Shown here piece after piece: positions 12,310 through 61,792 of a stretch of 64,000 nt of DNA. The position numbers were made by a program, and so were the translations under genes. How positions within the stretch are numbered: position 1 is the stretch's first letter; each line of letters starts with the position of its first letter. The notes beneath the pieces were generated by a model. The model saw only the letters and a list, made by a program, of their open reading frames with translations, was not told the DNA's origin and searched no databases. The stretch comes from Plicaturopsis crispa FD-325 SS-3 (lineage: Eukaryota > Basidiomycota > Agaricomycetes > Amylocorticiales > Amylocorticiaceae), in the NCBI GenBank assembly GCA_000827205.1, contig KN832557.1:1521771-1585770 (forward strand), in the 5' to 3' direction.

Positions 12310-15300
12310 ATGATTCCGCTGTTCTCTCTGTCTGCTTTACTCTTCACTTTCACGGTCGTATGTCTGGCGACGGAAACAGTGACGCTCAGGAGTCGAGGAG
12401 AACGGATCACAGCCCTCGCTACCGTCGATAAACGAGACCATCGTTTCTCTGCCCCGGCTGCAGGCAGTGACGGGCGCATAGGTGTAGATGACACGAGTCT
12501 TCTAGATATCGTGTTGGTGGCATCTGTGGACGGCAAATTTCATGCCCTGAACAGGACGTCCGGACATACGCTATGGTCCATGTCCTCCACCTCGAATGCG
12601 CCGTCGACGCTCGGCCCCCTCGTTCGCACGAACCACGTCGACACAGACCCAGATCTCACTGACGACGACACTCAGAACCAAGAGCTGTATGTCGTCGAGC
12701 CGCAGTCTGGCGACATCTATGTCATGGCTACGCCAAACAGTCCACTGCAACGCCTGCACTTTTCTATGTCCCAGCTCGTCGACATGTCACCGTTCAGCTT
12801 CTCGGGTAGCGAAGACCGGCGGGTATTTGTCGGGAAAAAGGAGACATCACTACTGCTCGTCGAGCTGGAGACAGGAAAAGTAAAGGCGACTATCAACTCG
12901 GAATGTCCGTGGGATCCGTTCGAGAACCTCGCTGAAACAGACCCTGCTGGCCTCGATCTTGATGAGCTCGAGGGTACAAGCCCTCCGAAGTCTAAACCGC
13001 GAGAAGTTTACATTGGGCGCACCGGTGAGCGCGCATATTACTCTCGACAAACAGTTTCGTGACTATCAATCAAGACTATCATATCTCCATCCACACACGG
13101 CCGCTCTCGTCGTCTGGACCTAGGCCACCCGTGCAGAACCTCTCCTTTTCCACGTACGGTCCGAACAATCAAGACCACGCACTACAGAACGTCTATCGAC
13201 GCACTGCCGATGATGCCTATGTTCAATCTCTCGCGAATGGCGAAATCTACGCATTTAAGACTCAAGGAGAGGCAGGGACGCTGAGAGAGTCACAGGCGCT
13301 GTGGATTAATAAATTCAGTGCACCGACGTAAGTATATCTTCGCATCCGCATTCTCGTCGAAGCAGTTTGCTGTAACTAAATGATATGCACTTCTCTCTAG
13401 CGTGGCCGTATTTGATGTGCTTACTTCTGCTGACCGTCACCAACCGTTCGTTCTCCTTCAACCACGACCCCGCCTGGAGGATGTTGCATCCACGTCCAAT
13501 TTACCCAATGTCGATGCGGCCTACGTAGGGCTCGTAGAGCAGAGCGGGTCCCTTTTTGCCATGACGCCAAATCGTTTCCCCCTTGTAGCCTTTGGCGACC
13601 GGTCCATTGATCCTTCTCCGAGCGCCGATCGAGACCTACCGCCCGACCTTGATTCCGTAACCAAAGCACGCAAGCTCAGGGCTATGTGTAGGAACGGTGG
13701 TACTGATCGGCGCTGCCTGACAGGCCTTCGGTCGTTGCACGACGACTCCCAGCTTCTAGACGGGGCGCCTCATGTCGAGTTTCCACCAGACCAAGAGGCT
13801 GTGCCGTCCTCTTCAGCCGTCCTTTACGACACGAACGACACCTTGAGAGGCAATGGCTCCATTCTTCCTCCATGGATCATAGGCTTGGGGCACCAGAGCA
13901 AGGCCGGCGCACCCTCCCTTACTCTCGGTGGCGGCCCTGTGAACTTTTTCTGGGGTATCACAGCCTGCCTTCTTGGCTTGACCTACGCTCTGGTGTGGTA
14001 TGTAGCGAAGAAAACCACGCGGCGGAAGATGCAACGGCTCGAATCCGGTCATGCCGCTGACGCCGTCATCAGCACGGCTATCGAGCCGCAGAGCGTCGTA
14101 GCTGGTGTTAGATTGGATGACCAGGCTCTTGCCATCACTGCTCCCGCTGCCGAGAAAAGCGACGCGTCTGCGGAGGCTCCGGCTGTATCTGCTCCGAATG
14201 AATTATCAGGTTCGGCTGCGACAGATGAGCGGGGGGAATCTGTAGCTTCTGATAATCATCTCCCTGATGTTACCCCCGCACCCGACGCCATAGCCAATGC
14301 AGAGGCTTCAAGACCACCTGAGCCACGGGACGATTCTCCAGATGGCGAGGAGAGCGATAAAGATGCGGATACTAATGCTACACCCGCGAAACGGAAGGGC
14401 CCGAGAAGGAGGAGAGGGAAAGGTGGAAAAGGCAAGAAACCCAATGGTCTTGAAGTGGGCGATGTAGTTGAGGGAGACGACGATAAAGCAGACGGGATAG
14501 CCCTACCCGTGCAAGGCGAAAAGGATATTGACGGCCTTCCGCCGCAATCACTCATTCTTCCGCCAACGCCATTACTGCAGCCCTCGCAGGCGACGTCCCT
14601 GATCGTCTCAGAGACAGTTCTCGGTACGTTTCCTCAATTTGGCATATCATACGTATGTTGAACATAATCATCATTGCAGGCTTTGGGTCCCACGGAACGG
14701 TCGTGCTCCAAGGATCACTTCAAGGTCGTGCCGTTGCTGTGAAGCGGTTGCTCCAGGACTTCGTGACGCTCGCATCCCGCGAAGTCAGTATCCTCCAAGA
14801 ATCTGACGACCATCCCAACGTCATCCGATACTACTACCAAGAAGCGCATGCCAATTTCCTTTACATTGCGCTCGAGCTTTGCCCAGCGTCTCTCGCCGAT
14901 GTCATCGAGAGTCCGGATCAATTTCGCGATATATCCATGGTCTTCGAGCCAAAGCGCGCTCTGCGCCAGATTGCGTCTGGCCTCCGGCATCTGCATAGTC
15001 TCAAAATTGTGCACCGAGACATCAAACCCCAGAATATCCTTGTGTCAACTTCAAAGGCTGTTCAAGGTCGATCGGCAGGTCATAGGATGCTTATATCCGA
15101 TTTCGGGCTGTGCAAAAAACTGGACGTTGACCAGACGAGTTTCCTGCCCACGGCGCATGGCGCACTAGCTGCAGGGACGGTGGGGTGGAGAGCGCCAGAA
15201 ATTCTGCGGGGTGAAGTGAAGCTGGACGACAATGTCGCTGATGATCAGTCACAGTCGTCACGGGGAAGCACTGGCACGGTCGGAACACCCACAGGCAAGC

Positions 15301-16071
15301 CCACGCGGCTGACAAAATCCGTCGACATCTTCGCCCTGGGGTGTTTGTTCTACTACACGTTGACGAATGGCAGCCATCCATATGGTGATCGGTTCGAGAG
15401 GGAAGTCAATATCCTACGCGATTCGAAGGTCCTGGGCGGACTAGAGCGATTTGGAGAGGAAGGGTCGGATGCTGTCGACCTTATCGGTGCCATGTTACAC
15501 CCAGAAGCGTACAGTCGGTGCGTAATACTGCTCCTTTGCATCGAATGTAATATTGACCCATCTCAGGCCGGACACTACAACGTGTCTCTTGCATCCCTTT
15601 TTCTGGGATCCGGGGCGGCGTTTGACCTTTCTGCAGGATGCGTCTGACCGGTTCGAAATTATGTGCCGAGATCCTCGAGATCCTGACCTCATTACTCTGG
15701 AGAAGGGTGCCGTCAACATCGTCGGAAACGACTGGCACTCGCGTCTCGATAAAGTCTTTATCGAAAATCTTGGCAAGTTCCGCAAATACGACGGTCGATC
15801 TGTCCAGGATCTCCTTCGCGCGCTGCGAAACAAGGTAAGATCATAGCTGCTCTGCTATTCTGCTTATTTACTAACAACACGTTTCCAGAAACACCACTAT
15901 CAGGATTTGCCTGAAAATGTCAAACGACATCTTGGACCCATGCCCGAAGGTTTCCTATCTTACTTCACCCGGCGATTTCCTCGCCTCTTCCTCCACGTCC
16001 ATGGTGTCATTGCCAGCACGTCACTACATCAAGAGTCGATGTTTAGGTCGTATTTCGAGCTGGTGGAATGA
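12310..16071 (+). CDS. IRE1: IRE1, ER-membrane kinase/endoribonuclease of the unfolded protein response
   Basis: IRE1 senses unfolded protein in the ER lumen and cuts the HAC1/XBP1-type mRNA in the cytosol. Exons are 12310-13024, 13075-13327, 13401-14623, 14680-15517, 15567-15834 and 15889-16071 (1159 residues). The order is a signal peptide (MIPLFSLSALLFTFTVVCLA), a luminal beta-rich domain with ALNRTSGHTLWS and SFSTYGPNNQD, a TM helix (FFWGITACLLGLTYALVWYV), a 220-residue linker with a basic patch, and a kinase with GFGSHGTVV, VAVKRL, HRDIKPQN, SDFGLCKKL and GWRAPE. The KEN RNase follows with KFRKYDGRSVQDLLRALRNK joined across an intron to KHHYQDLP, so the catalytic Tyr, Arg, Asn and His are all present. 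RNKKHHY matches the animal sequence. All catalytic residues look intact. Confidence 0.96.
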
Positions 16072-21368: not shown

Positions 21369-23607
21369 ATGGCATCCTCCTCGTCCGCACCCTACAGCTA
21401 TGTTTCTACGCCGCAGAAACCGTCAACGCTCAACAAACTGAGCAGAGGGTCTCCACGTCCTCGACCCCATGTTTCTCGTTCAGCTACCTTTCAAGCGCCT
21501 TCGCAGGGCGAGTCTAGCGGCAGCGGCAGCAATCCTTCGCCTCGGTTTAGCAGAATGCTGGGCTCTGTCCTCGGTTCACCCTTTCTTACCACATCCGACC
21601 AGGCTGCGGACATACCCATATCAGACATCGACGTCGTGGACGGCGCTATGTCCGCCGTACCCCATGCCTATACCGTCACGCGCCCAGCGTCTCCAGCCCC
21701 GACCATGGATTTCTCGATGATCAGCCCGCCCAGTCCCTCGCTCTCCGCAATCGACTTGAACCGCTCTTTCTTTGCTACGCCACCCCGTCGATTGTATTCT
21801 AGTAACAGCGTTGGGGTTTATTCTGGGTCCGGCAGCCCGGCCAATCCCCTGAAGAACATCTTACCCCGGATTTGGGGTGCACTTGCGTCTCCGGGAAAGA
21901 AAGCGAAGGGGATGTCGTCGTCCCGTGGGATGGACTACGAAGGCTACAACTACGAAGATCTGCCGCCGCTTGACGGAGAGGAGGGCGAGTTGATCGACGA
22001 CGAGGCATGTTTCATTGATGTCAGAGCCGTTACTGGAATGGGTACGCACTTTCTTGATGGTGTTTCATTGCCAAAGCTTGACATCATCTTGCAGACATCG
22101 TTGCACAGCTGCCTCCCGAAGTAGCATTGCACTTGCTTCTCTTCCTCGACCTCCCCAGCATAATCGCATGCCTCAGCGTCTCGCGGACGTGGCGAGAGCT
22201 TGCTGGGGATAATGCTATATGGCGGGAGCTCTTTCGGCGGCGCGATGGATGGAACGTCGATTTGCAACGTGCCCGAGCGCGCGGCTGGTCACCTGTATCA
22301 ACGCTGAGCCCTGACATCAACATCACAACGCCGTCTCGACTTAGCCATGCGATCGAAGAGTGGGGGCGACGACGCCTGACCTCACAAGCGTCTGCTCCGA
22401 GCCCCCAACGTCGGTCGATCGTTCCAACGATAGAAAGGTGTGCTTGTTCCCTGCTGTGCTGGCTTTCCATTACTAATGGTAGACAGGTCCGCTACTGTGG
22501 CGCCATTAATGCTTGATTGGCGTGTACTATACAAGGCACGTCAAGAGGTTGATAAACGGTGGGCAACAGGGGAGCCAAGAATGGCTAAGATATCCGGTCA
22601 TGCGGATAGGTAAAAGCTTCCTCACTTTCATCGTTTTGTGCACGACTGACAATGAACACAGTGTCTATTGCCTGGAGTTCGATGCCACCCGAATAGTCAC
22701 CGGCTCGCGAGACCGCACAATCAAAGTCTGGTCGCTGCTCAACGGAAAACTCTTGGGGACGTTCTTCGGGCATGCGGGGAGCGTTCTGTGTCTCAAATTC
22801 GACAAGGACTGGGATCTCGAGGATCGCTCGAAGCCTGGGTTCATGGTCAGCGGGAGCAGCGACTGTTCGGTGTGCGTGTGGGAGCTTCGGACCCAGCGCA
22901 ACGGAGACGTAAGGGCCGATGTGAGCGCAGTGCTTCGCGGGCACTCGGGTGGCGTACTGGATCTACGCATCGACGAGCGGTGGATCGTCAGTTGCTCCAA
23001 GGACGCCGTCATTCGCGTTTGGGACCGCACGACACTGGCGCTCCACTGCACGCTGCGCGGTCACGAGGGTCCCGTCAACGCCGTCGGGCTGCAGAGTGGC
23101 CGCGTCGTCAGTGCTTCTGGCGATGGGAAGATGATGCTCTGGGACATTCACAGTGGAGAGCGTCTACGCACCTTGGAGGGTCATGACCGCGGGCTCGCGT
23201 GCATCGAATTCAAGGACGACCTCATCGTCTCCGGATCCAACGACTGCAAGATCAAGGTCTGGAATGCGTCCACGGGTGAATGCGTGCAGACGCTTGTGGG
23301 GCACGATGCGCTCGTGAGGGCTCTAGCGTTCGATCCAGCAACGGGGCGGCTAGTAAGCGCCAGTTACGACAAGACCGTCAAGGTCTGGGACTTGAAGAGT
23401 GGCAAGATGATCAGAGAGTTCCGCAATTGCCATGTGAGCCATATCTTTGACGTCAAATTCGACGTTTGCAGAATCGTCAGGTGTGTTTTTCCGTCCACTT
23501 TTGTTGCGGTGGTTGCTCACCATGGGCTGGCATGCAGTACTTCGCACGACCAGAAGATCGTCGTGCTCGACTTCTCGCAGGGCCTCGATACTGCCCTCTT
23601 CGTTTGA
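21369..23607 (+). CDS. F-box/WD40 substrate receptor of an SCF ubiquitin ligase
   Basis: Exons are 21369-22041, 22095-22437, 22487-22609, 22662-23480 and 23538-23607 (675 residues). The ATG at 21369 (MASSSSAPYSY) was used because the frame upstream opens only with TTG. The first 225 residues are Ser/Pro-rich. The F-box is LPPEVALHLLLFLDLPSIIA followed by CLSVSRTWRELAGDNAIWREL. Seven WD repeats follow, such as VTGSRDRTIKVWSLLNGKLL, VSCSKDAVIRVWD, VSGSNDCKIKVWNASTGECV and VSASYDKTVKVWDLKSGKMI. The family (Fbxw7/Met30/beta-TrCP-like) binds phosphorylated substrates on the propeller and links them to SKP1-CUL1. Which substrate is recognised cannot be told. The Ser-rich N-terminus is unusual in length and may itself be regulated by phosphorylation; this is inference. 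Confidence 0.92.
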
Positions 23608-31828: not shown

Positions 31829-34800
31829 ATGGACGACCCAGATTCCTCGCAGGGTGCCCGACGTTCCCAGAGAGAGAGGAAGCAAGTCAAAATATACAAC
31901 TCGCGTATGTTTCCTCAGTTCTTGACCGTCATTTCTACGCTGACGCGCCAAATGCAGTGGAGAGCTCGCAGTCGGGCAAGCGCAAACGTGCAGACAGCGA
32001 CACAGAGGACAATGACCTCGCTCTGTCCGATTTAGATGGTCCTACTCCGGAAGACGACGACGACGAGGACGAGGAGGAATATGCTGCACCCACACCGAAA
32101 GCAAAGAATGCTTCGCCTCGCAAGAGCAAACAACCGAAAGCGCCTCGTGTTCCATCCCCCAAGAAGCCACGAACAGCCAAAACTACAAAGAGCGCGAAAA
32201 CGACGACGCGCAAATCCAAGAAGGGCGGAGAGAACGACGCGTTTGACGCGGCAAAAATAGCGAGCGACACGAAAATATCTGGGGACAACCCGCTCTTCAG
32301 TGAGTCTCTTCGGACGTTCTGGATGCTTGATATGAGCTAAAAACGCGCTCGCTCAGACGCCGTGATGAACCCGTCCGCCGCCCTGCAATCGACCGCTGAG
32401 GATTTCTTGGAGTCTCTGGAGCAAACTCCTGGGCCTGCGCTATCAGAACTCATCAACCTCATATTGCGAGCTTGCGGCTGTAATGACTCTGTCGATGCCG
32501 ACGAGGTTGTTGATTATGATGGAGTGGTCGACGCGTTAGACAACTTCACGGAAGGTCTGAAACAGGTGCACCTATTCACATCATGCCTTATGTTTCAATT
32601 TTTAATATATGTCGAGCAGGAGAATTCTCCGGTCTACCCGCTCACTTCAAAGTTACCCGCGTTCAAGAAATTTCGAAAATCAATATCTGAATTTCTTCAC
32701 CGACTAACGGCGTCATCCGCCGAGCTGGGCTCTCTTTACACCTCGGACCTTATGGTCACCCTCCAAACGTGGGTAGTCGCCATGTCGTCTTCGCAAATCC
32801 GAAGTTTCCGCCATACAGCGACCGTCGTTGCGCTAGAGGTTGAGACCGCCCTTTGTGATGTCGCAGCGGCTGTCGAAAAGGAGGCTGAGGTGATTGGACG
32901 GCAACGAGAGGGCGAGAGGAAACGCAGAGCTAAGAACAAAGGTGCCGGAACGCGCGAAAAAGAACTGGAGGGCAAAGCAGCAGAGGTTCGCGAGCGCCGA
33001 ACGAAGCTCTCCGAGTTTATCGCCGAGTTCGTGAATGGGTGAGTACCTTACTGCGCAAGGTGTATCCCTGCGCTTACGCATGTCCTCCAGTGTTTTCGTC
33101 CACAGATATCGTGATCTCGACCCTAGTATACGCGCCGAGTGCGTACGCGCGATCGGTCTCTGGTTCAAGAAATACCCCGGGCACTTTCTTGACGGCGCGT
33201 ATCTTCGTTACGTCGGATGGGTTCTCTCCGATTCCAACACACACGTCCGACTCGAGGCGGTGAACGCCCTCTCTGGCGTCTACGCCCAGGCGGACTACAT
33301 CGGCTCCTTGAACCACTTCACGGAGCGGTTCAAGCCTCGCCTCATCGAGATGGCTACCGGAGACACCGAGCTCTCCGTGCGCGTAGCTGTAATCAAAGTC
33401 CTCGGAGCCATCGATGGCCATTCCTTGCTTGAGGATGAGGAGCGAGAAAAGCTCTGCTTACTTGTGTTCGACGAGGAGCCGAGGGTGAGGAAGGCAGTCA
33501 GTGGATTTGTGAGGGGAGTGTGGAGTGACGGCGTCGACGAGCAGCTAGTGGGAAAGAAGGCTAGCGAGAAGGACACGGAGCGTGCCGGGGTCAAAGTCTT
33601 GGGAATGTTGCTCGTGAAGTGGGGCAAGACCTTGGATCAGGCGGCAGCATCGACGGACGACCAGAACAGCGGAGTGGACGACGACAGCCTTGGTCCGCGA
33701 GAAGGAGGATCGAGGGCGAAATTTGTGAAAGAGACTACTTCTCTGGTCGGACTAGGTCAAAAGGGTCGGACCGCCTTGGCCGTAGAGGCTCTCTGGGACG
33801 AGGTAGACCCCGTCCGCAGCTGGGATACCCTCCTTGATGTCTTACTCCTTGACCATTCTGCTGCCGGAGAAGATGCATCCCAGCCAAGCCGCGGACCAAA
33901 AAGCAAAGGAAAGGCCGCCGCAGGGACTTCGCTCGTCGATGAAGCCTGGAGATTGGATGAAGTTGAAGAGAGCATCTTACTCGAGGTCTTCGTCGCCGCT
34001 CTTCGCAGGGCGAAAGCTGAAGCAGCTGGCGCGAAAAAAGTGTGTCTGCATCCATTGCGCCCTTTCGAAGTATACTGATAACTTTCTCCGTACCCAGGGA
34101 GAAGATGAGACCGTAACTTCCGACATAACACGCGCACTAATCAAAGGCCTCCCCCGCCTATTCATCAAATATCAAACTGACCAGAACCGAATCGCTAACG
34201 TGCTCCTATTACCGCCACTCATGAACCTGGACTTATATCTCGAAATGCGAATGATTACTGTCAGTCCATTTCGCCGCTTTCTCCATTGACACTGTACGGA
34301 TTAACACCTTCACAGGCGTATTCTACATTATGGGAGGATGTCTCCAAACAATTTCTCTCGCATTCGTCCTTGACCGTGCTTAAGCACGCAGCGCTCGCGC
34401 TCGAGCACTTCATGCGCGCTACGAGTCTGCAAAACACGAACAGCACCAAAATCCTCGAGCTCGAGGATGAGCTGTCTACGTTCCTGAGGGATGCTGTTGC
34501 CGGCAGAGATGAGATTGAGGTGGCGTCTTTTACTGAGGATGAAGTCCTCGCGCTCGCCGCTCTCTGCTCTCGTCTAAATGTATTGGCTGGCATGCGAGAT
34601 ATGACTGCGTGGGTGGATGAAGATGAGGGAGGAAAGCAGAGTAGTGCTTGGGACATCATCAGTGCGCTCGTCGACAGAGGCAGGCTAGGATACAAAGAGG
34701 AAGAAACGGTGAGTATCCCGCTTCCTCAGACAGGCAGAAGTTGTGCTTATCCCTTTCTCTCAGATGGTTGACCAAGCCCTACATTTCCTCACTCTGCATA

Positions 34801-37192: not shown

Positions 37193-40100
37193 CTACGGAG
37201 AAGAGGAACGGAAACCCGTGGCCGAGTGGAAGCCCGGCGACAGACTGTCCGATAAAGGTCTTGTCACGGCCGTAGATGCGCGTCGTGACTGCGCCGAGAC
37301 AGGACCCGCAGACATGGACATGGAGCGGGTTCGAGTGAGCCGCCATGACTTCGGCTCCTGGTCCATTCGGATGCCCAGCATGGCATACAGTTCGTCCTGA
37401 GCGTGCACCATTGCCCGCGTTTCTGAGGTTGGCGTAACACTGGAAGCAAAAACTGAAGAAAATAAACACATCAACAAGCTATCCGTGAAGAGAATGGAGC
37501 AAATACACGAACCAGAATGGCGGGTAGGTAGACCAGAAGTCACAATGCCCAATGGCCGTGGCATGGGAGGAACGGGAGGTATGATGGAATCGGGCATGCC
37601 AGCCGACGACGGTATCGAACTATTCCTGGTGCTGGCTACCGAGATTCGTTGACTTCGCCGACTCGCACTGTGAAGTCCTGCTTTTGAGGCCCGCAAACTG
37701 GATTTGCGGACAGCCGAAACGCGGTGGGAGCGTAAACTGGTCGAAGACCTCGCCGACCGAGTTTGAGAGCCAATGTCTGGGCATGCATCTACGAGCTTTT
37801 CGTTCAGGTCGTCGAAATCGTGAGCGACATCCTCCGCCTGTTTCCAAGCCTGGTCACGCTCAGCCTCAAGGGCGCTGATCCGCTCCCGGAGTAAGTTGTT
37901 CTCAGTCGCCTTGCTCAAAAAGCTCGAGTTCAACTTCCGGAGCGCCATAGCAAGAGCACTGGCGGAGTGCACATCACGCAGGCTCTTGAGCTGCGCTATC
38001 TGGTCTGTGACAGAGTGCAACTCTTCCGCGAGCTGGTCGAGCTGGTTGGACATGTCTGCGAGCTGCTCTACCAGGCGAAGAGCGCTCGCGGGATCACCCG
38101 GCTGCTCGCCGTCCACGAGCGCCGACAAGGATCCGATGAGAGACCACCGCTTCCGCGTCATGGCCTTGTACCTCGTCCTGATGTCCATCCTGAGCATATC
38201 CAAGCGATGCAGTTCCTCCGGCACCTCGTTGTCCAGTGTCTCTAGTCGCAACAGCCGGATAGACGACGCCTCCGCAGACTGCTTGATCGCGCGCGAGACG
38301 ATGCTCTGCAGTTGGTGCGAAGTAAACGTCCAGATCGCGGCATCCATAGTGTAGCCCCGCCACTTGATCGGCTGTGTCTGAAACTTTGGGGAGGGGCCAG
38401 TCATGCCCGCGCTGAATGTCCGCCACGTCCCAGCACTCATCTCGCCACTCTCGTTGCGCGTGCGGATACTTGCCATAGACGAGACGGAGCCGTTCCTAGC
38501 TCTACCATCCACCAGGATGGAGGACCCCGTTGCGCTGGGCTTTCGGGGCCCAATGGGCAGCGGAGGTCGCGTCCTCGGACGGCGGCCACTCCCGCTGATT
38601 GAGCCCAAAGATGAAGCCGGCAGCCCTTGACCCAACTTCACAGGACCGTTAGACGCCTGGACCGGGGTGTCCGCAGTGGTAGGCGGGGAGCTCATGTTCG
38701 TCAGTTGATCGCTCCCAGGCGATGGGGTCTGAGAATTCGGCTGTGACGGGGGAGAGGAAACCGCAGCTTGATAGGGCGGTGGCGCAACATACGAAGGGCT
38801 GAACGACGCGGAACTGGGGGCGAGGGAAGGCTGTGGTGAGCGCGCACGCGGCGGCGGTGGCGGCGACCGTGATGGCGGTGGCGCAGAAGGCAAAGGTGGT
38901 GGCGCCGGAGGGGGCACAAAAGAAGTGCTCGTCGACGGCGCTGATAGAGCGGTAGAAGCAGGAGGCGCGAGCTCCGATGGCCCAGAAGGCTTGCGTGCGT
39001 TGGCTTGTACAGTGTCCACCTCGATATCGGGCGATCGACGCGTCGGTGCAGTCATTGGCCGCCCCTCGGACGTCTCTTTGGACTGCACAAACGCAGGAGG
39101 TGTTGGAGGAGGCACATTGGGTAGATCCTTCATGACAGATAACGGCACAGGCGGGCTGTGCTCGTAGTCGGCCATGAACGCGCTGAGCGGGTACTGCGAT
39201 GTGCCGTTCGACGCAGCCGTCGACTCCCCGTCCTCACCAATAGGCGAGAGCGTCGACTCCTTCGTCCCCGGCGCCGTCGAAGTGGGATTCGTGCGCGGAC
39301 CTAGCATTATCCTGGAAGACGCCGACGGCCCCGAGTTCGGCCTCGAAGATGGAGGCGCGGGCTCGGGCTCCGCGGACTCCGCAGGCATCGTCTGCCCCGG
39401 CCCCGCCGACCACATCGGGCTGAACGCGTCGGGAGTCTCGGGGAACGTCTGCTGCGTGCCAGAGGTGGGCGGCGAGGTGGCCGAGGACGACATCGGGCTC
39501 TCGGACACCGCGATGCTGTATGCGCGCATTTTCGCGTCGCGCACCACCGTTATGGGGTTCGGCGTGCTGCCGGAGCGCTGGCGGACGAAGATGCCCCTCG
39601 TGGCTGGTGCAAGCATGCCGTCGAGGATGTCGGGCGACGTGGGCGTCGAGGAGTCCGTTCGAGGCGCCGTGGACGGTCTTAGGGACTTTACGGAGGTCGC
39701 GGAGTTGGGTACGGACCCAGCGAGTTGGGAGATGGAGCTCATGCGGATGGTGGACGAGGTGATCTTGGGTTCAGACGTTGCGGCGCCAGGGGAATGGGGG
39801 GAATGAGGGACATGCAGGGAGTGCGGGCGCTCTCCAATGGGTAGAAGCGCTAGCGAACGGTTGGCGTTTTGTTGAGTGCTAACCCGAGTACTGCCACCCA
39901 GGACCCGGGAGTCAGTGCGATTACCCCAGTCGAGTCGACCTGAATTGCATACAATGGATCAATACAGAAGGAATGCTGAAGATTAAACGCGACTTACCGC
40001 TGGGGCCGGTGGGCAGTATGACTTTTCCACTGCGGATTTTCTTCGAGCTTCGCTTTGTCGGCGCTGTATTGCTGAGGGGCGATGGGGGTGCAGTTGCACT

Positions 40101-51282: not shown

Positions 51283-53374
51283 TCAGCTCGCCCAAGCGCC
51301 CCAAGGATTTATCCAGCGCAAGTCCTCGAATGCCCGGTCGTCTGGGTCGGGGTGCTCTCGTCGCTCCGCAGTGAGGAACCGAATGTCGGCGTTCGCAACA
51401 TCCAGGCGTCCGGGATCCTCGGGCTGGTAGTGGATGGGGCGCGTGCGAGCTAGAAAGGAATGGGGTTAGCGACGTATTAGATGAGAGACGGATGAGGAGC
51501 GTACATCGAGCACCGTCGCTGAGGTCGGCGAATATAAGTTTGCTGCGTGATGGTCCGTATGATGAGCGCCTGTCTGTACGGAGAAGATAGACACGGAACT
51601 CACTTTGTTTCGCGGTCGTTGAAGTAGTCGAGCTCGGAGAGCACGCTAGCGTCGAATCTATCGTCGGGGTTGCGCCGTAGCAGCTGTATAGGAGCAAGAG
51701 CCGGTCAGCGTAGTGAAGAGGGGCAAAGACGAGTGAGAAACATACCCCAGCGATCAACTTCTTCGCAAGCGGGTCAGTGACGCCTTCACGTTCAATGAAC
51801 TCCTCCTCCGTGAAGGTGCTCTCCGCGAACCATACCACGTCCTCCATGCCCCTGAAAAGCGTCTGCAAACCCGAGCAATCAGTTCCGGTTTCAGGGACCA
51901 TGCTGCGCGGCATCACGGACCTTGTGAGATAAGATGGGACACTCGAGGTCGAACGCCACACATCCAAGCGCCCAGTAGTCGACCATGGGGCCGTATTTCC
52001 TCCTGTCCTGTCGGTGCTGCGTGTCCATGACGGCGATCTCCGGCGCCATGTACTCGCACGTGCCGGCGATCTCATCGCAGTACCCGAGGTCCAGGAATAC
52101 GGGGGCGGAGGGGTGGATGTACGAGGTGCCGAAGTCGGTGATGCGCATGTTGCCGCGCGAGTCGATGAGGAGGTTTTCGGGCTTGATGTCTCGGTGGATG
52201 ATCCCGAGGTTGTGAAGCGCGTTGAGACCCATTATCTGCGGTAGAGGATATGGAAGTCAGTTGGGCTGCGCGTAAACTGGAGCGTGCAGTAAATGAACTC
52301 ACGATTTGGGCAATCCAAAGCTGGGCGTTCAGACGGCAAAACTCTAATTTGCTCACAAGCATCTCGAAGAGATCGCAATGCATGAGCTCCTACAAACAAA
52401 CGGTCGAGACATTAGCGTGCAATGAATTTAGGAAAAGTGAACGGGCGTACTGTGAAGAAATAGACAGAGCTCTCATCCTGCAGCGTACCGTCGCTCTGCA
52501 TCAGGAAGTCGAGTCCTCTCAGCTGTCCGGGCTCGCATCTCGCGATAATCTTGTATGCGTCGAACTCCATGAACGCGTGGTGCACAACCCGGAGCGTACG
52601 TAGCTGCGCCTTGTTGAGCACCTTGACGCAGATGAGGCGCCCGGAGGGGAGTTGGCTGGCGGAGCAATCGCGGACGACGTACGTCTCGCTCAGCTTGCCC
52701 TTGAAAAGGAGCTTGGCGAACTGGAGGGGCCCGGGGGTGGGCGCGAGCACGTCGGGACCGTAGAAAGATTTCAACGAAGTCTCGATGTGGTTGTCGATCC
52801 GTGCCGTGACCTCAGCGTCGGAGTCCTCGTCGTCCTCGTCGTCATCATCTGCGTCAATCATATCGTATTCCTCGAGATCGAAGGAGCGATGGACATTGCT
52901 GATGGAGTATGGGTCCGAGTAGTCGTCGGTCTCGTCGTCATACTGGTCCATGGCCTCGTTTGCGTCCATATCATCCTCGGGCTCCTCCTGGCCGACGTCC
53001 TCGTCCCGAGCAATCTCTTCTTCAGCCCGAACCATATCGCCCACATCCTCGACCGCTTCGGGCGGACACCAGGTAGGCGTCGAGGGGCGATGAAGAGGAC
53101 TGCGCGGGTCAAAGGCAGCGGATACGTCGGCCGAGGGGCTGCGAGGGATGGGGGGCAGATCAGCTTGAAGGCGTGCGGTCATATTCACCCGAGAAGTCGC
53201 GGAGCCAAGGACGCCATGCCTGAGAATCGGCGCTGGTGTGCGGGGAGTCGAGTCGGACCCGTCGCGATTGCGGGAAGGGGAGTTCTCGCGGCCTGAAGCG
53301 GGGGATCGGTGATTCAGGCGAAGCTTGCGGCTGGTAGAGCGGATGACACCGGTGAGGACGTTGGGCGGAGGCAT
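51283..53374 (-). CDS. Ser/Thr protein kinase with acidic N-terminal region
   Basis: Seven exons (53374-52451, 52389-52303, 52235-51921, 51862-51746, 51683-51604, 51569-51505, 51449-51283) join to 584 residues. The start is MPPPNVLTGVIRSTSRK. The N-terminal 200 residues are disordered and acidic (ADDDDEDDEDSDAE). The kinase lacks a normal Gly-rich loop (GKLSETYVV), but has ICVKVLNKAQ (ATP lysine), HRDIKPENLL, TDFGTSYI, YMAPEIA and MVDYWALGCVAFDL, so it should be active. A C-terminal extension ends RAFEDLRWINPWGAWAS, with TGA at 51283-51285. The domain is closest to AGC/CAMK-type kinases, but I cannot name an orthologue. A paralogue with broken catalytic motifs lies 6 kb away in inverted orientation. 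Confidence 0.88.
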
Positions 53375-54507
53375 CGTGGAGAGCAGTGGGCGTGAAGGGC
53401 GGATGCAGGCAGTAGGGTGGGTATGGCGCTGTGAGGTAGAGGAAGATGTCAATCTCAGTGGCGCAGATCGAGACGAGCAGTCGACTCGGTGAAGAGAGCA
53501 GTTCAGTCGCTGCAGTACGGTACTTTATAACCAACCACGGTGCGCTTAGGCTTTGACTACTCGTAAGCCTAAGTGGACGGATTCGACCCTGCGGAAGTTG
53601 CCGCAAATAGGCCATTGTCCACAGTAGGGTGAAGTGGACCTTTCATATCAGATCGGCACTGAACAATGGGCCCCCTATTTCTTCGGAATTATTAGTGATG
53701 CCAAAGTCAGAATCACAGTGACCGCTTACTTGACGTTCAGCTAGATAGTTGGATCAGGGTCGTTCACGGCCGAAATGCCCTTCTAGATGCAACGCTTTGA
53801 CCTTGATATTCAATTTTTCGGGTGAAATTTCGTCACCCGACGTGAGAGTGTGCGAGCGCATTTCAGATAACACTATGTTTCCTTTTTTGTAATTCGTGTG
53901 CTCACACGCTGAGTAGTCTTGCGAAATGTCGCTGCAGGTACAGGACAGTTGGGCACAACGGTGAACCATTAAAGACCCTCAAGTGTCCCACTCAGTTTAC
54001 GATGTGTGATGATGCTCATACTTTCTAGATAACTTTAAGTTTTGTGAGTGGTTCCCGCCTGAAGACGCAACGCAACGTACGGCGAGTCACTCGCTACCAG
54101 CGCAAGCCTGGATTTTGCCAATACTTTCTTTCAAGGTGGGTGGACGCGCCAAAGCGGACATCCGACTGCGATCGCAGAAGTGGGATGCATCGACAGAGAG
54201 AAGGATGCTGCAAGAATTGCCAGAAAATAACGATTCCAGTGCACCATGAACGTCGAAAGATACGATGTCTCAATCGGGAAAAGCGTTGAGTATAAAGTCA
54301 GAAGCGAGTCGAACCGGCTTGAGGTGAAGTCGGGTCGGCTCACTTTCTCGTCATCGGAGCCTCCGCTGTGACGTCGTTTCCCCCTTGAATTTGGCCCATT
54401 TCCTCCCGCCGCAAAAGCGAAATGTTTCTTCGTTCTAACCACCATCTCCTTTCCACATTCCAGCTTTTCCGTTCTGTCAATAGGCCTGAAAAGTTGTCGA
54501 CAATCCG
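53375..54507. other. 1.1 kb divergent intergenic region
   Basis: This lies between the kinase start (-) and the membrane-protein start (+). Short frames on both strands carry no motif. No repeat or RNA gene is evident. Confidence 0.5.
53524..53529 (-). promoter_or_regulatory. TATA box of the kinase gene
   Basis: On the minus strand TTATAAAG lies about 150 bp before the ATG at 53374. The paralogous pseudokinase gene has the same octamer in front of it. Confidence 0.5.
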
Positions 54508-55772
54508 ATGATGGACTCAGACTCGCTCCCGATTGACTGGTCTCATCCAGCAGTCAAGGAATACCTCTCGCTAATTCGGTGTGTTGCATGAATTCTGAGA
54601 TCGGACAGCACGAGACTGACAATCATATAGACTACAAGTGTTGACACCGCTGTCGCTGCTCATCAACATAGCGACTGTCCTCGTATGCGCAGCCGTCGTG
54701 AACCCGTCAATTGGCGAGGTCGCAAAGCAGCATAGGACGAGCATATCCCCTCGATCCTCTCTCATCGCAGCGTACCTCGTCGCAGTGTATGTGGGTCAAC
54801 TTGGATATTGCTTTTTGTTAGTTCTTGCACGCAAGCCAGAAACAAAGGTACGTGCATTTCCGAAATCGATGTCCTTCTGTCGAAATCCCGGTGCAATGTG
54901 GACGGGATATGCTTAAGCTCGCCATCTTTCGCGCTTGGCCAGGAGTGTCGTCCGGAACTCATTTTCACGAGTTCTTACTGACTTACATCTCTAGAAAACC
55001 CTCGTAAAGGGCGTTGGATTTGCCCTCGTACTCGCCAATTGGGTGATGGCAGCGTGGGCCGTCACCTGGGTCTTCAAGCTCTTCATCGCCTCCACAGTCT
55101 TCCTCGGTATACTCGTCGTCCTGCTTGTGTACTCCAACATCGCGCTCCTCGTCTACCACCCACCGACAAAAGCGCGGCCCCTCGACACTGCGCTCATTCA
55201 TGCGCCTATGCGCTTCTTCCTTATCCTCCCACTCTCACTTATGCTCCCCTATGCGCTCTTGTACGTCTTTCCCGTATATACGTTCTTCCTGGACTAACAA
55301 ATCAATCACAGCGTCACTCTTGGCCTGTCATACGACGCGTCGGCACACCCGGGCGCGTACGATAACCACCCATGGCCCGGTTTCGGCGTCGCGTTTGGCA
55401 CGAATCTTATCGGCCTTATTGTTGTGCTCGCGCGTCGCGACGTGGTGTGGACCGTCGCAGCGACATGGCTGTGTGTCGCCGTGTGGAGCCAGCGGCCGAA
55501 GCCGTCGCCCGTTTATGTGCGTGCCTTCGTCGTCTTGTTTTCGCTACAGCTGACTAACTTGCCCGCAGATTGTGGAAATTCTGTTCACGGTGCTGCACCC
55601 GCTTGCGCTCATCGTCTCTGCGGTGTACACGCGCATGCACAATCGGGGAGGGCACATTGCGCTCCCGCCTGACCACCCCGACCATCTCGAGAACGGGAGA
55701 CGCCAGGGTGAGGGCGAGGGTCAGAATGCTCGGGGCCCGAGGGAAGTAGACACAGATGAGTTGTGGAACTAA
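54508..55772 (+). CDS. Fungal multi-pass membrane protein of unknown function
   Basis: Five exons (54508-54578, 54631-54847, 54995-55260, 55312-55516, 55569-55772) join to 320 residues. The start is MMDSDSLPIDWSHPAVKEYL. Hydrophobic helices are LSLLINIATVLVCAAVV, SSLIAAYLVAVYVGQLGYCF, GFALVLANWVMAAWAVTWVF, FIASTVFLGILVVLLVYSNI, APMRFFLILPLSLMLPYAL, GTNLIGLIVVLARRDVVW and EILFTVLHPLALIVSAVY, so six to seven segments. The C-terminal 40 residues are charged and end VDTDELWN. The layout recalls the fungal DUF1774 family, but I cannot confirm it. No transporter signature is seen. The consistent splice sites and frame make the gene real. Confidence 0.78.
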
Positions 55773-57087
55773 GGGTTTTCCGAGGCCGGTCGTTGGCCAG
55801 TGGTATGGTTGGATGGACTAGCAGTATTAAATCGGCTGGAGGATAATATACATACCACGCATGTTTCCCTATGTCACCCGTGTATTTATCTTACGAATTT
55901 CTATAGTTTGGATTCGTTAGTAGCAAGCATAGGGTGCTCACAGTCACCTGGCCGGGGTAGACTATGACGACCCTGCAGGCCTGAAGTCGGAACAGTTGTG
56001 TGATGCAGCTGAGTTCAATTGCAACTGCACATGAAGCTTGAACTTCAAGTTGAAGAAATAAGTAATTTCCTTCTCTCGAGTCGCATTCCATCGGCAAGTC
56101 AAGGTCCTACGACACACTCAGCGCTCAGCATGTATTCGACAGGTCGCTCAAGCGGTTCAGTAGCTCTCACGTTGAGTACTACACACCTTGCAGGCTTGCA
56201 ATGGTCTACTGGGTGACCGTCGGTGACCTCGACTCCACGGTTTCCTGCAGACTCAAAGCGTCCTTCCTCAGCTGCTTCCGAGGCTTGGACGAACTGGACA
56301 TGACAGGCCCGCTCGAGTCACCTTCAACGCTGCGTGAGCATGGTTCCAAGGGCACGTTGAGGGATCGCATGGCCTGATGGGAGATAGTGAGTGCACGGAT
56401 TCTAAGTGCGCTAGGACGACGACTATCGTGCAGCGACTCGAGTTCGACAGTATGCCTCTCGATTAGCGACTCCTGGGATCCCTGGACCCACTGGTGCTTT
56501 AGCCTCTCTCTATCTCCTGGTGCAGGAATTCAGTTCGTCACCCCTTGTTTGACCATCCGGGTCCAGGTGAGTTGTTGCAGGACCTCCCCTCAACTAAGCT
56601 CCTTGGCGACGGTAGACTGCAGTCCACCAACGGGGCGGTCGTCGCTCCAAGGAAACGGTCTTTCAGATATCACCCGGCCCATGTCTTTCACACCACGAGG
56701 CTCGCAACCCGGCGTCATTGTCAAACTCAGGGTCGCGTCGCAGGCCGTGTAATTACGTTCTCGTTGAACCACAAACGCTAGCCGACGCGCGGCTCGTCCT
56801 TGGACCCTTTCGCTGCGAACAATGGCAAAGGCGTTTCGTGTCCACATTCCATATTGGGCGATGCAGCTTTGCCGCTGTCCACATCTCCATGTTCGACAAC
56901 GCGAGGGGTATATATATATCACAGCACCTCACGTCTCCGCCTCTCCTCAACGTTCCTCTCGTGAGCAACTGGTGTACCCATCGTTGTCCGCCTCCTACAT
57001 CGTACAATACACCTCTACCGCGCCCTCTTCCTCGGCCCTCTACCTCCATCACCACCTTTATCCCCGCGACTAACAGCTTGTCCCGAC
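55773..57087. other. 1.3 kb intergenic region with one small open frame and a promoter
   Basis: The right end is a promoter with a TATA box at 56909 and a CT-rich leader. A 58-codon frame at 56201-56377 (MVYWVTVGDLDSTVSCRLKA...) is protein-like but unsupported otherwise. Nothing else is recognised. Confidence 0.4.
56909..56918 (+). promoter_or_regulatory. TATA box of the small Ala-rich ORF
   Basis: TATATATATA is followed by a strongly pyrimidine-rich stretch up to the ATG at 57088, the pattern of highly expressed basidiomycete genes. Confidence 0.5.
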
Positions 57088-57471
57088 ATGTCACTCCCTC
57101 GAGTCGCCAACGGTTTCCTCTACGGTCCGGGCTTCAGACTCCGTTTGGCTGTAGTCCGCGTCGTCGTCGCGCACACCACTGCACCTGTCGCCGGTGCCAT
57201 GCAGGCATCTGCTAGTGCACACCCTTCCACCACCGCTGCTGCTGCGCCCATCGACGGCGCGCCGGCACCCACTCCCGACGGCCCTCAAACCGCGCCTTCC
57301 ACCTCTGCCGCTGCCGCAGCGCAGTCCACCACCAGCCCTTCCGCGATGCCGTCTACCGCCGCCGCCGCCGCCTCGTCGGCACCGCGGGTCATCGCTCCTC
57401 TACCGCGCCCCCGCATCACATTAATCGTCAAACCATCCCTACCGTCGCGCCACCGCGACGCGTCGGATTGA
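57088..57471 (+). CDS. Small Ala/Pro/Ser-rich protein
   Basis: A 127-residue frame begins MSLPRVANGFLYGPGFRLRL and passes through a long Ala/Ser/Thr/Pro low-complexity stretch (APIDGAPAPTPDGPQTAPST) to a basic end (PLPRPRITLIVKPSLPSRHR). The N-terminal part has a hydrophobic stretch (LRLAVVRVVVAHTTAPVAGA), perhaps a membrane anchor or signal. A good TATA box and CT-rich leader argue for transcription. No intron or known domain is visible. It could also be a non-coding transcript with a chance frame. Confidence 0.42.
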   Translation: MSLPRVANGFLYGPGFRLRLAVVRVVVAHTTAPVAGAMQASASAHPSTTAAAAPIDGAPAPTPDGPQTAPSTSAAAAAQSTTSPSAMPSTAAAAASSAPRVIAPLPRPRITLIVKPSLPSRHRDASD

Positions 57472-57964
57472 TCCTTCTATCCATCCAGCGGCTGCCGCCC
57501 TATACAGGAGAGAAGGGAGGCTTGTAGGAGTGTCCGTGACTTTGCCGGGGAAGGCTTTCGTGTTTTTTTTTTCATTATTGGCCTGCCTCATTCTGTTATG
57601 TTTACCTGTCCTGTTTGTCATAATGATCTGACCTCTCTTATGTACGTTATGCAACCACACTTATGCTGCTCCTGGCCCCCGTCTGAACTACTCAATTGGA
57701 GGTACAACTGAATCTGTTGGTCTCTGTCTAGGAGAGACCAAGTCTGAACCGGGTCTCACTTGGAAGATCAATGACGTCACGGCGGCAAATCAAACAACGC
57801 CAAATATCCGCTACTCAACGCTTTGCCTTTTATGGTATCTTCCTCGTTTGTTCGCTCGCAAATCTTCATTTTCTCGCCCGCATTCCTTTCCTCACCAAAA
57901 AAATACGCCGCTCAATGAAACTACCACCTCTCGCTGACGCCTACACGGGGTGTACAAAAGGTAA
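57472..57964. other. Intergenic region with a short T run
   Basis: The 493 bp include a run of about ten T at 57563-57572 on the plus strand and the 3' flank of the tRNA gene. No gene is supported. Confidence 0.45.
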
Positions 57965-58067
57965 TGGACTAACTGGGAATTGAACCCAGCACCTCTCGCA
58001 TCGGATTACGTAATCGTAATTACATAATATGCTAAGCGAGCGTGATAACCAACTACACCATCAGCCC
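57965..58067 (-). tRNA. tRNA-Ala (anticodon AGC) with a 29-nt intron
   Basis: On the minus strand the acceptor stem GGGCTGA pairs with TTAGTCC, and pair 3:70 is G:U, the main alanine identity element. The A box (TGGTGTAGTTGG) and B box (GGTTCAATTCC) are intact; the T stem is CTGGG/CCCAG. The anticodon stem CTCGC/GCGAG encloses TTAGCA|T, giving anticodon AGC, with the intron (58001-58029) after position 37 as expected. The mature length is 74 nt. The intron contains a perfect 12 bp palindrome (GATTACGTAATC) next to an 8 bp one (GTAATTAC). Confidence 0.93.
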
Positions 58068-58216
58068 TTGTGAAGTGATTGATATTGGTGCTACTACTAG
58101 TAGTACTACTAGAGTGCCATAACACGATACCACTTCAAGAGTCCACCGACCACTTTTCAGCGCACACCGAAAGCCAGTCCATCACGATCCACCACTAGCC
58201 GCTAGTACCATACTCG
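58068..58216. promoter_or_regulatory. 149 bp between the tRNA-Ala gene and URM1
   Basis: The two genes diverge here. It contains a palindromic trinucleotide cluster, CTACTACTAGTAGTACTACTAG (58091-58112, given in two halves of the pattern CTA/TAG), of unknown role. No TATA box for URM1 is clear. Confidence 0.4.
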
Positions 58217-58683
58217 ATGTCTACCACCGCTGCCTCTACGACGCCTACGATATCAGTCAAGGTCGAATTCAGCGGTGGACTGGAGCTCTTATTTGGCAAC
58301 ACACGGTCCCACAGCATCGTTGTTCCCGGACGCGTATCGATCAAGAACACTACTACTTCAGTACGAGACAGCGAGAAAAAGATCGATGAAAATGCGACAA
58401 AACCTGCGGACGTAGCGTACTTGATAGCGCATCTGCGAGATCACCTCCTGCAGGAACGCGAGGAACTGTTCGTCGAGGATGGAAGCGTGTACGTCTGCGT
58501 CGCTTTCTCTACCTAGCTTTCTCGCACTGTCACGCGTACTACGATGAGCTGATGATTTCTAACAGCCGTCCGGGTATCCTCGTCCTTATAAACGACACGG
58601 ACTGGGAGCTTGAGGGTGAAAGCGCGTATGTGCTGCAAGAAGGAGACGAGATCGTGTTCATCTCGACGCTGCACGGTGGCTAG
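58217..58683 (+). CDS. URM1: URM1 ubiquitin-related modifier
   Basis: URM1 is the sulphur carrier for 2-thiolation of wobble uridine in tRNA Lys, Glu and Gln, and can be attached to proteins. Exons 58217-58488 and 58566-58683 join to 129 residues: [17 protein letters not shown] at the first strand, [20 protein letters not shown] in the helix, [17 protein letters not shown], and the end [14 protein letters not shown]. The C-terminal Gly-Gly, needed for adenylation and thiocarboxylation, is present and TAG is at 58681-58683. The N-terminus ([11 protein letters not shown]) is about 20 residues longer than the yeast protein, which begins near VKVEF. Size and end motif make the call firm. Confidence 0.95.
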
Positions 58684-59385
58684 TGGGTGCAAGACGGTTC
58701 GTGTGAAACAGGAAGGGGTGCTATGCTCTGCGTCATGAGCTTAGTCGAGTCGGTGCGGAGGGCGGGGTGATTGCACGAATAGCCCGCGCAACGGGGTGAG
58801 CTCAAGCCAACCTCACGATTCCTCAGGGCTGGCCTACGCGCTGGGCCATCCCTTACCCTTCGCTGTATCGCTTGAATGGACTATCGCTTACTGCCGGTCC
58901 CTCTATATGTGGAGGAGGCATACTAGGTGCGCTCTATCTATATATGCGCGCTCTAGTGTACATATGACTGATTGGCATTCTTACAGTCATACAATACCAT
59001 CGCTGCGTGTACGACCAATACTATTTTTCATCGCCAGGAAGCTGCATGCGTGCCACCACAACCGTTTAAAGTGATCTCGACTCTTACCATGGCCCAAGTG
59101 TGCCCCGAGCTCCAATGTGAGTAGTCTTGTCTAGCCGCAGCTTCTAACATGATTCCACAGAAATTCACCGCTTAGACCACCACAAGCACATCCCCATTGT
59201 TTAGGGCATTGGAATCTCCGGTCTTTTTCCAGGACAAAGGGGCGTAGCGTAGATGCCACGACCGCGGATGCACGTGGATCTAACAATGCCATTCAGGCGC
59301 GCGTCCTTATAAAGCCTTGTTGGATATCTTGTCTCTCTCTCACCCAACAACCCCCGTCGCCTCTAGCTTGCCCTATCAACCTACC
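58684..59385. other. Intergenic region upstream of the pseudokinase
   Basis: The 702 bp contain the URM1 3' flank and, at 59308, a TATA box. Short frames are not supported. Confidence 0.5.
59308..59313 (+). promoter_or_regulatory. TATA box of the pseudokinase gene
   Basis: TATAAA (in TTATAAAG) lies 73 bp before the ATG at 59386, the same octamer as before the paralogous kinase. Confidence 0.6.
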
Positions 59386-61792
59386 ATGGATTACACTACT
59401 TTGGTGCACAACCTACAGAACCTCGCGGACATGATGGAGCTGCCTTTCGGTAGCCCGCAAACACCCCTCTCCAATGATCCTTACACCTCCTTCGATCTCG
59501 ACGCTGCCAGTGCCCTCCTCGAGCTCTCATCGCGTGAATTTGTGACCATCGACGAATCTCGCGGACACGTTGCTGTCTGGGACTACGCCACCCCCGATGA
59601 ATCATGCAAGGACGCGCCGTCTTTCGCTGATCTCCAGACAGTCGATAATATGCTTGCGCACACCTTTTTCAACACCCCGGGTGTCAGCCAGCCTCTTACA
59701 CCCGGCCACCAGGATCCTCTATTGCAGTATGCTTCTCATAACGTCGTCGCACCAAGCGGCGACGCACACATTCCAACTATATGGCCATCGAACATCATGC
59801 CTTTCACTGGGCTCCCCGCTATGCACGAGCGGAATCATGACCAACAAGCCACACCAATAATACTTGACTCCTCAGGCGGATCTCCGTCAGCGGCACATAA
59901 CAGCCAGCTCGCCGAAAAGCCACGCCCTGGCTGTTTTCTCCCTTCATCCGTGCGCGTGACTGCAGCGGTCGTTGAGGAGCACGGGTCCGAATCCGCATAT
60001 CTCTCCCCGATTGACTCGGAGAGCGACGATGGGTCGTATTCGGAAGAATCTTCCAATCCAGCGAGCCCCGTTCGCCGTAACCCGACGGTAGAACACCCTC
60101 TGTCGTCCCTCGCTTCCGCTGTCAGAGAGCGCCTCCAGTCTCGCTCACGTGCCAGTCCAGGTCCTGAGGGCGAAAGCCCCGTTAATGGCTCGAAGAGTGC
60201 GGATGCTGCCGACTGGTCCGAGGCGAGCAGCGTGCCCTCTACTCCGAGCGTGTCGTCCCACAGCGACCCGAACACCTCAGAGAGCAGTTTGGAGCAGACG
60301 CTAGCTTATGATGCTGTTGGTGGTGTGGAACCCTCCTCTTACGACGGCACCGACCACTCAGCGGGCGCGGAGTCGTCTCTAGGCCCGTTCACGATTGGCG
60401 ACGAAATTTGCGCTGGCGAACACAACAAAGTGCTCGTCGCCCTCGATAGCTCAAACGGAGGGCGGGAGATCGTAGCGCTGAAGTTGTGGTCGAAGAAAAC
60501 TCTCCTCTCGAGCAGAATTGCGCGGTCGAAACTGATCAACGAGATCGCTGCATTCCGGCGTATTGCCGAGCGTGAGGAGATGCCGAAGGGGAGCCAGTTC
60601 CTCATGCATTGCGATGGCGTCCTACAAGACACTCTGCACGTCTACATGTCTTTGGTATGTCCTTCACTGTGGCGGCGCATAATTGATGCTGAGCAGAGGC
60701 CCATCTATAGGAACTCATGCACCAAGACCTATCCTGGTTCATCGATAACAATGCAGGAGTCCTCGCCCGTAATGTCGAAAGATGGGTCGCCCATGCGGTA
60801 CGTCGTCCCCTTTCCCTCCTGCTCCCCTTGTTTCTGATAAAACTACACCTTTAAGGCCTCCGCTATACATGCGCTTCACGGTATGGGAATCATACATCGG
60901 AACGTCAATCCCCGAAACCTCCTCATTGATGAGTACAACAATCTCCGCCTTGGTGACTTCTGCCGCGCGTACATCACGCCGCTGGGGGATACTTTGAAGT
61001 GCGAGACGGTTTGCTCGGACGACTTCACTGACAGGGCATGCTACTTTGCCCCAGAGATCGCTACAATCCTACACAACAAGGACCCTGCTGAGAACCGATC
61101 GTATGGGCCTAGTGTCGACTATTGGGCGCTAGGATGTGTGCTTTATGAGATGGAAATTGCGTCGGTAGACGAATTCCGGACCGTGCGTTTTACCCGTTCA
61201 AGCCGACGTCATGAAGATGCTGACACTCAGCGCCAGGTTTTGTTCCCAACTTTGGAGGACGTCGATGCGTATGTGAAGTCTGAGCAGTCACCAGGGGAGT
61301 TTCTCTGGGACGCTGGGATCGAGACAGGTCCGCTCGGCGGATTACTTGCAGGGGTAAGCAAAATGTGCGAACGTCTGTCCTACTGGCATACCAATACACT
61401 ATGCTAGCTCATCCGCCGCGACCCGAAGGATCGTTTCACGTTCAACGAAGTGCGTGACCACCAATACTTCAAGGAAGCTACGAAGTGGAAGGGTGACCCG
61501 TCAGTTCTCGTTCCACTTCTCTTCGCTGCCACATGTATTTATACTCCGTTCTGCCAGCCCCACGAGCTTTGATAGTCTGGCCGATGATACTATCACCCGC
61601 AAGCGCGGTACGTATTGGTCTACCTCGCTCAGAATGCCCACTTCGAGCACGGATGTCCGCCGTCCGTCTGTGCGGCTCCCCCGTGCGCTCGAAACTTCGC
61701 ACGCGATGTTCGATACGCTTGGGTGGATTGACCCCAAAGGCCACTGGGGCGGTAATTCTGACGAGTTTAACCTCGGTCGCTCCATCTGTTAG
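59386..61792 (+). CDS. Kinase-like protein with degenerate catalytic motifs (probable pseudokinase)
   Basis: Exons 59386-60654, 60711-60797, 60856-61164, 61237-61353, 61408-61499 and 61558-61792 join to 702 residues; start MDYTTLVHNLQNLADMM. About 340 residues of Ser-rich disordered sequence come first. In the kinase domain the ATP lysine is kept (IVALKLWSKK), but HRDIKPEN is HRNVNPRN and DFG is DFC (RLGDFCRAYI), while FAPEIA and SVDYWALGCVLYEM remain. The catalytic Asp and the DFG glycine are thus lost, so phosphotransfer is unlikely. The fold residues are intact and frames are open, so it is not a dead copy; a scaffold or decoy role is inference. The C-terminus has MFDTLGWIDPKGHWGG, like the end of the active paralogue at 51283-53374. 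Confidence 0.85.

Follow-up and report, generated by a model that had tools for sequence, protein, structure and literature searches.

Two protein kinase genes that lie in inverted orientation in the genome of the basidiomycete Plicaturopsis crispa, here named A and B, are paralogues with a shared gene structure, and B combines an intact reading frame with a pattern of active-site residues that makes it a predicted pseudokinase, well supported by its sequence. The explanation considered likely, taken as a whole, is that both genes descend from a common AGC-like ancestor and that A would have stayed active, B having become non-catalytic but useful. The analysis covers a stretch of 64,000 nucleotides (hereafter the window), to which all positions refer.

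Locus and gene models

Models of both genes were derived anew from the bare DNA, and the start and stop coordinates claimed in an earlier, sequence-only reading of this DNA were recovered exactly. Gene A (51283-53374, minus strand) has seven exons and an open spliced frame of 575 amino acids, and gene B (59386-61792, plus strand) has six exons and an open spliced frame of 708 amino acids (Table 1). Their introns are short (54-67 nt) and of the GT-AG type, which fits a fungus. Splice sites were picked by reading frame and in part by homology, and two of them have alternatives, namely an in-frame donor at 61165, 18 nt earlier, for intron 3 of B, and two possible donors for intron 6 of A, where the last exon base is either 51505 or 51514. 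The N-terminus of A is rich in Asp and Glu (49 among the first 210 residues) and that of B in Ser and Thr (72 among the first 329).

Table 1. Exons of genes A and B, in the order in which they are read
Gene	Exon	Positions	Strand	Length (nt)	Content
A	1	52451-53374	-	924	Acidic N-terminus and kinase N-lobe as far as VYFFT
A	2	52303-52389	-	87	ELMHCDL...
A	3	51921-52235	-	315	HRDIKPEN, DFG, EIAGT, APE, VDYWALGC
A	4	51746-51862	-	117	
A	5	51604-51683	-	80	Phase 2 end
A	6	51505-51542	-	38	Possible end 51514; next intron missing in B
A	7	51283-51449	-	167	C-tail, final residues FEDLRWINPWGAWAS
B	1	59386-60654	+	1269	Ser/Thr/Pro-rich N-terminus and kinase N-lobe
B	2	60711-60797	+	87	ELMHQDL...
B	3	60856-61182	+	327 (309 with donor 61165)	HRNVNPRN, DFC, DDFTDR, APE, VDYWALGC
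B	4	61237-61353	+	117	
B	5	61408-61499	+	92	Phase 2 end
B	6	61558-61792	+	235	C-tail containing FDTLGWIDPKGHW

Elsewhere in the window, STAG and SCD domains (PF08514, PF21581) are encoded at 32341-34078 (+), as in a cohesin subunit, and a WD40 protein similar to WDR3 (247 bits for its first beta-propeller model) at 22510-23607 (+). An open frame of 921 codons at 37193-39958 (-), whose Pfam matches are weak and all below the cut-off, overlaps the 2-kb bin with the highest GC content of the window (0.633, at 38001-40000).

Paralogy and shared introns

The proteins encoded by A and B are identical at 117 of 370 aligned positions (E = 7e-49) over an alignment that begins with the kinase domain and extends to a C-tail motif, which reads LRWINPWGAW in A and LGWIDPKGHW in B. 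The paralogy proposed earlier is thereby confirmed, and all the peptides quoted in its favour were found. Between the N-terminal parts (210 amino acids in A, 329 in B) no relation was detectable, the best E value being 9.5.

Gene structure is shared as well. Exon 2 (87 nt) and exon 4 (117 nt) have the same length in both genes, as had been noticed before. The previous count of four common introns holds for exact coincidence and falls one short of the total, which is five. Introns 1 to 4 lie in the same column of the protein alignment and are all in phase 0; intron 5 corresponds by phase (phase 2 in both genes) and near position only, the two sites being 12 nucleotide columns apart within a gapped loop. 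With zero tolerance, four of the five introns of B match those of A, a score equalled by 0 of 200,000 random placements; with a tolerance of 12 nt all five match, which was equalled by 6 of 200,000. Use of the donor at 61165 for intron 3 of B would remove one of the four exact matches. In total, A has one intron more than B.

A third kinase domain of the window (14532-15647, +), which we take to be IRE1-like, scores 122.6 bits against Pkinase, has HRD and DFG intact and is open in frame through most of its length. When aligned with A and B (hhalign probability 99.0), it shows no interruption where introns 1 and 2 would lie; at the sites corresponding to introns 3 and 4 it is likewise open in frame, but the alignment is poor there. 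Since the third kinase reads through introns 1 and 2, the exon structure of A and B is not general to kinases of this region, although a single control gene says little.

Relatives of A and B were also sought in viral contigs (2, 33 and 3 pattern stretches) and in bacterial and archaeal genomes (31 pattern stretches), and none was confirmed in these collections, which are non-fungal and silent on fungi.

Kinase classification

Against the Pfam family Pkinase, A scores 123.5 bits and B 92.0 bits, and with a cut-off of 31.7 bits B is thus recognized as a kinase domain. An assignment to the fungal family FunK1 (Pkinase_fungal, PF17667) was rejected, this family being absent from the five matched by A and the three matched by B at E values up to 0.1. 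The top-scoring solved relatives are RSK for A and ROCK2 for B, both of which belong to the AGC kinases. By group, 59 of the best 60 of 1825 solved chains matched by A are AGC kinases, the remaining one being a MAP kinase, so that similarity to the AGC group is apparent. The list for B opens with 22 ROCK or Greatwall chains, but its best 60 of 810 include no more than 29 AGC chains, next to 21 TTK chains together with PLK, SNF1 and a MAP kinase. Both domains would be classed as Ser/Thr-type and, less clearly for B with its mixed set of structural relatives, as AGC-like.

In AGC kinases, the hydrophobic motif of the C-tail has the form F-x-x-F-S/T-F/Y. The tails of A and B show a similar pattern, F-x-x-L-R/G-W, in which Arg or Gly occupies the Ser/Thr position. 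In addition, the activation-loop Ser of RSK1 is replaced by an acidic residue, Glu in A and Asp in B, as read by eye from the alignment. If so, neither A nor B would depend on PDK1-type phosphorylation, a reading that builds on the rules established for AGC kinases; tail and acidic residue together would suit a regulation without PDK1.

Active-site residues and predicted loss of catalysis

The motifs VKVLNK, HRDIKPEN, DFG, EIAGTCEYMAPE and VDYWALGC of A, which also has APE, correspond to LKLWSK, HRNVNPRN, DFC, DDFTDRACYFAPE and VDYWALGC in B. The sequence-only reading was right in setting A, with HRD and DFG, against B, with HRN and DFC in an intact frame. To its list of losses two more are added, so that B lacks the HRD Asp (HRN), the catalytic-loop Lys, the DFG Gly (DFC) and the activation-loop GT. 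Retained in B are the beta3 Lys, the alphaC Glu, the catalytic-loop Asn, the DFG Asp, the APE motif and the F-helix Asp.

This pattern was also placed against two reference kinases by aligning A and B with fragments of RSK1 and ROCK2, the ROCK2 fragment being without most of the N-lobe. Among the 80 columns in which RSK1 and ROCK2 are identical, A keeps 36, B keeps 29 and both keep 25. A alone keeps 11 columns, and among these are five active-site positions: the Asp of HRD, the Lys of the catalytic loop, the Gly of DFG and both the Gly and the Thr of the activation loop; four columns are kept by B alone. Overall identity to RSK1 is 77/243 for A and 58/242 for B, and identity to ROCK2 is 55/208 for A and 56/208 for B, comparisons that are not neutral because RSK1 is the best match of A and ROCK2 that of B. 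In the glycine loop, one of three glycines is kept in both proteins, and for this reason the activity of A is not certain either.

Pseudokinases are defined in PMC4718504 by the loss of at least one of the beta3 Lys, the HRD Asp and the DFG Asp. In B the HRD Asp is Asn, the other two residues being retained, and the losses at HRN, the catalytic-loop Lys, DFC and GT together lead to its prediction as a pseudokinase. B probably still folds and, to judge from its beta3 Lys, alphaC Glu, catalytic-loop Asn and DFG Asp, may bind ATP; catalytic activity would be absent.

That B is active by an atypical route, through weak HRN activity or a substitute residue, is considered unlikely. The HRN domains of HER3 and JAK2 have a very low reported activity (PMC9988210), Haspin is active with DYT replacing DFG (PMC4718504) and B retains ATP- and metal-binding residues, all of which would agree with such a route; however, the active site of B is changed at four places, and restoring the Asp in PSKH2 gave no autophosphorylation (PMC9988210). 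The analogy with PSKH2 is weak, since PSKH2 orthologues with a natural HRD were also inactive in the same assay (PMC9988210).

As a rescue of B, RNA editing was rejected. The Asn of HRN is encoded by AAC in the sequence of B, a codon that would read as GAC after A-to-I editing at the first position, with the HRD Asp restored; stage-specific A-to-I mRNA editing is known in some ascomycetes (PMC11087585). However, neither the catalytic-loop Lys nor the DFG Gly would be recovered, and this possibility is hardly credible.

Probable maintenance of gene B

Measures of frame and codon use, rather than dN/dS, point to B being a protein-coding gene under constraint. Its first exon comprises 423 codons without an in-frame stop, and 0 of 20,000 mononucleotide shuffles of this exon were stop-free. 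The GC content of third positions is 0.633 in B and 0.753 in A, with 0.496 in the introns of B. Over 356 aligned codons, the nucleotide identity between A and B is 0.494, 0.562 and 0.379 at the first, second and third positions, respectively. With its fold motifs conserved and its frame open, B fits the earlier proposal of a copy that became a pseudokinase, by prediction, and seems to have been kept as a protein. It is very improbable that B is a recent pseudogene: its catalytic residues are lost, as would be expected of one, but its frame of 708 codons is unbroken across six exons with GT-AG splice sites, its fold motifs are kept, and its third-position GC and the outcome of the exon 1 shuffles are those of coding sequence.

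Age, arrangement and origin of the pair

At fourfold-degenerate sites shared by A and B, 21 of 49 are identical, where about 35% would be expected from base composition; synonymous sites are thus near saturation, as after an ancient duplication, and by this measure the divergence of A and B is ancient. The genes are inverted and divergent but not adjacent, their start codons being separated by 6.0 kb in which other genes lie. One of these encodes Urm1 (PF09138; 58199-58683, +) in two reading frames that overlap and presumably represent two exons; the second is probably a membrane protein, the joined pieces of which had no Pfam match. A HIG_1_N domain (PF04588) comes after B.

TATAAA is found at 53524-53529 (-), 155 nt upstream of the start codon of A, and at 59308-59313 (+), 78 nt upstream of that of B. 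The background of TATAWA in the window is about 0.09 sites per 300 nt of one strand, and the presence of TATAAA upstream of both genes is not counted as evidence for co-regulation.

An old local inverted duplication had been proposed for the pair. Paralogy, age and inversion bear this out, whereas for 'local' the linkage is no more than compatible, as synonymous sites are near saturation. An old local duplication nevertheless offers a plausible account, and would be the simplest one, of linkage and shared introns together. About an even chance is given to a history in which A and B belong, as two of its old members, to a larger fungal kinase family whose exon structure is ancestral; their proximity at 6 kb would then be due to descent or chance and carry no functional link, the role of B being its own, whether non-catalytic or otherwise. 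Such a history overlaps with the explanation preferred here, which needs no partnership between A and B. The near-saturated synonymous sites favour it, and the dissimilar N-terminal parts and the unrelated genes in between fit independent careers. Against it stand the close linkage of A and B, their shared introns and the finding that a different kinase is the only further match to either at E < 0.01 within the 64 kb window.

Proposed explanation

According to the preferred explanation, A and B would derive from one AGC-like Ser/Thr kinase gene with about five introns in its kinase domain. After an ancient duplication, A would have remained a probable active kinase; B would have undergone four active-site losses, namely of its catalytic base (HRN in place of HRD), of the Lys in the catalytic loop, of the Gly in DFG and of the GT in the activation loop, and would have retained nucleotide- and metal-binding residues, the unusual C-tail and its structural motifs. 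In function, B is most likely non-catalytic, with a kinase fold and probable ATP binding, and could serve as an allosteric partner, a scaffold or a substrate decoy. A probably phosphorylates proteins, and B probably acts by binding. What weighs against the explanation is that B is further from RSK1 than A, has the lower Pfam score and has a mixed list of solved relatives.

The idea that A itself is the partner of B, which goes back to the sequence-only reading, is speculative and rather doubtful. Less probable still, and improbable in its own right, is a hitherto undescribed fungal signalling module made of a phosphorylation-independent AGC-like kinase (A) and an ATP-binding HRN/DFC pseudokinase (B), the linkage of which would have been kept on account of an allosteric switching of A by B. 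Should the pair prove to be conserved, mushroom-forming fungi would gain a kinase/pseudokinase module whose common descent is visible in shared introns, and with it a tractable case of a paralogue that lost catalysis yet stayed useful. If it is not, the pair amounts to one more divergent fungal kinase and an inactive cousin.

Comparison with known systems

Among solved structures, RSK and ROCK give the top scores with the kinase domains of A and B, but the similarity is low, and A and B differ from them by the acidic residue at the activation-loop Ser of RSK1 and by an unusual tail with WINP or WIDP. Pairs of a kinase and a paralogous pseudokinase are a known kind, exemplified by PSKH1/PSKH2, Fam20C/Fam20A and Bub1/BubR1. 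The earlier statement that no such system had been described is therefore too broad as regards pseudokinase paralogues of active kinases; it stands for mushrooms insofar as a search of open-licence literature (titles and abstract openings) gave no linked AGC-type kinase/pseudokinase pair among the matches listed. Likewise, no such pair is described in the parts covered of the fungal kinase literature (PMC2838846, PMC5030230, PMC3937382, PMC12394161), which deals, among other kinases, with FslK, the TK-related kinases of Agaricomycetes (PMC3937382). Possible pseudokinases have been raised among the fungal SRPK and Ffk kinases (PMC3591445).

The canonical kinase PSKH1 has a relative, PSKH2, that is an HRN pseudokinase, and this vertebrate pair resembles A and B in joining a canonical kinase to a close HRN relative that keeps ATP-coordinating residues (PMC9988210). 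It differs in belonging to the CAMK family and to animals, with an HRN form restricted to primates, and in that PSKH2 deviates at HRD (PMC9988210), whereas B has four active-site changes. In the Fam20 pair, an active kinase (Fam20C) is likewise accompanied by a related pseudokinase (Fam20A), which activates it allosterically; however, these are kinases of the secretory pathway for which activation has been demonstrated (PMC5413348), whereas for A and B any such effect would be hypothetical. The Bub1/BubR1/Mad3 family has undergone repeated duplication in which one paralogue almost always lost kinase function, either by deletion of the domain (Mad3) or by mutation (BubR1), and in this it is like A and B; it is unlike them in kinase family and domain layout and in its known role in the spindle checkpoint (PMC3591445).
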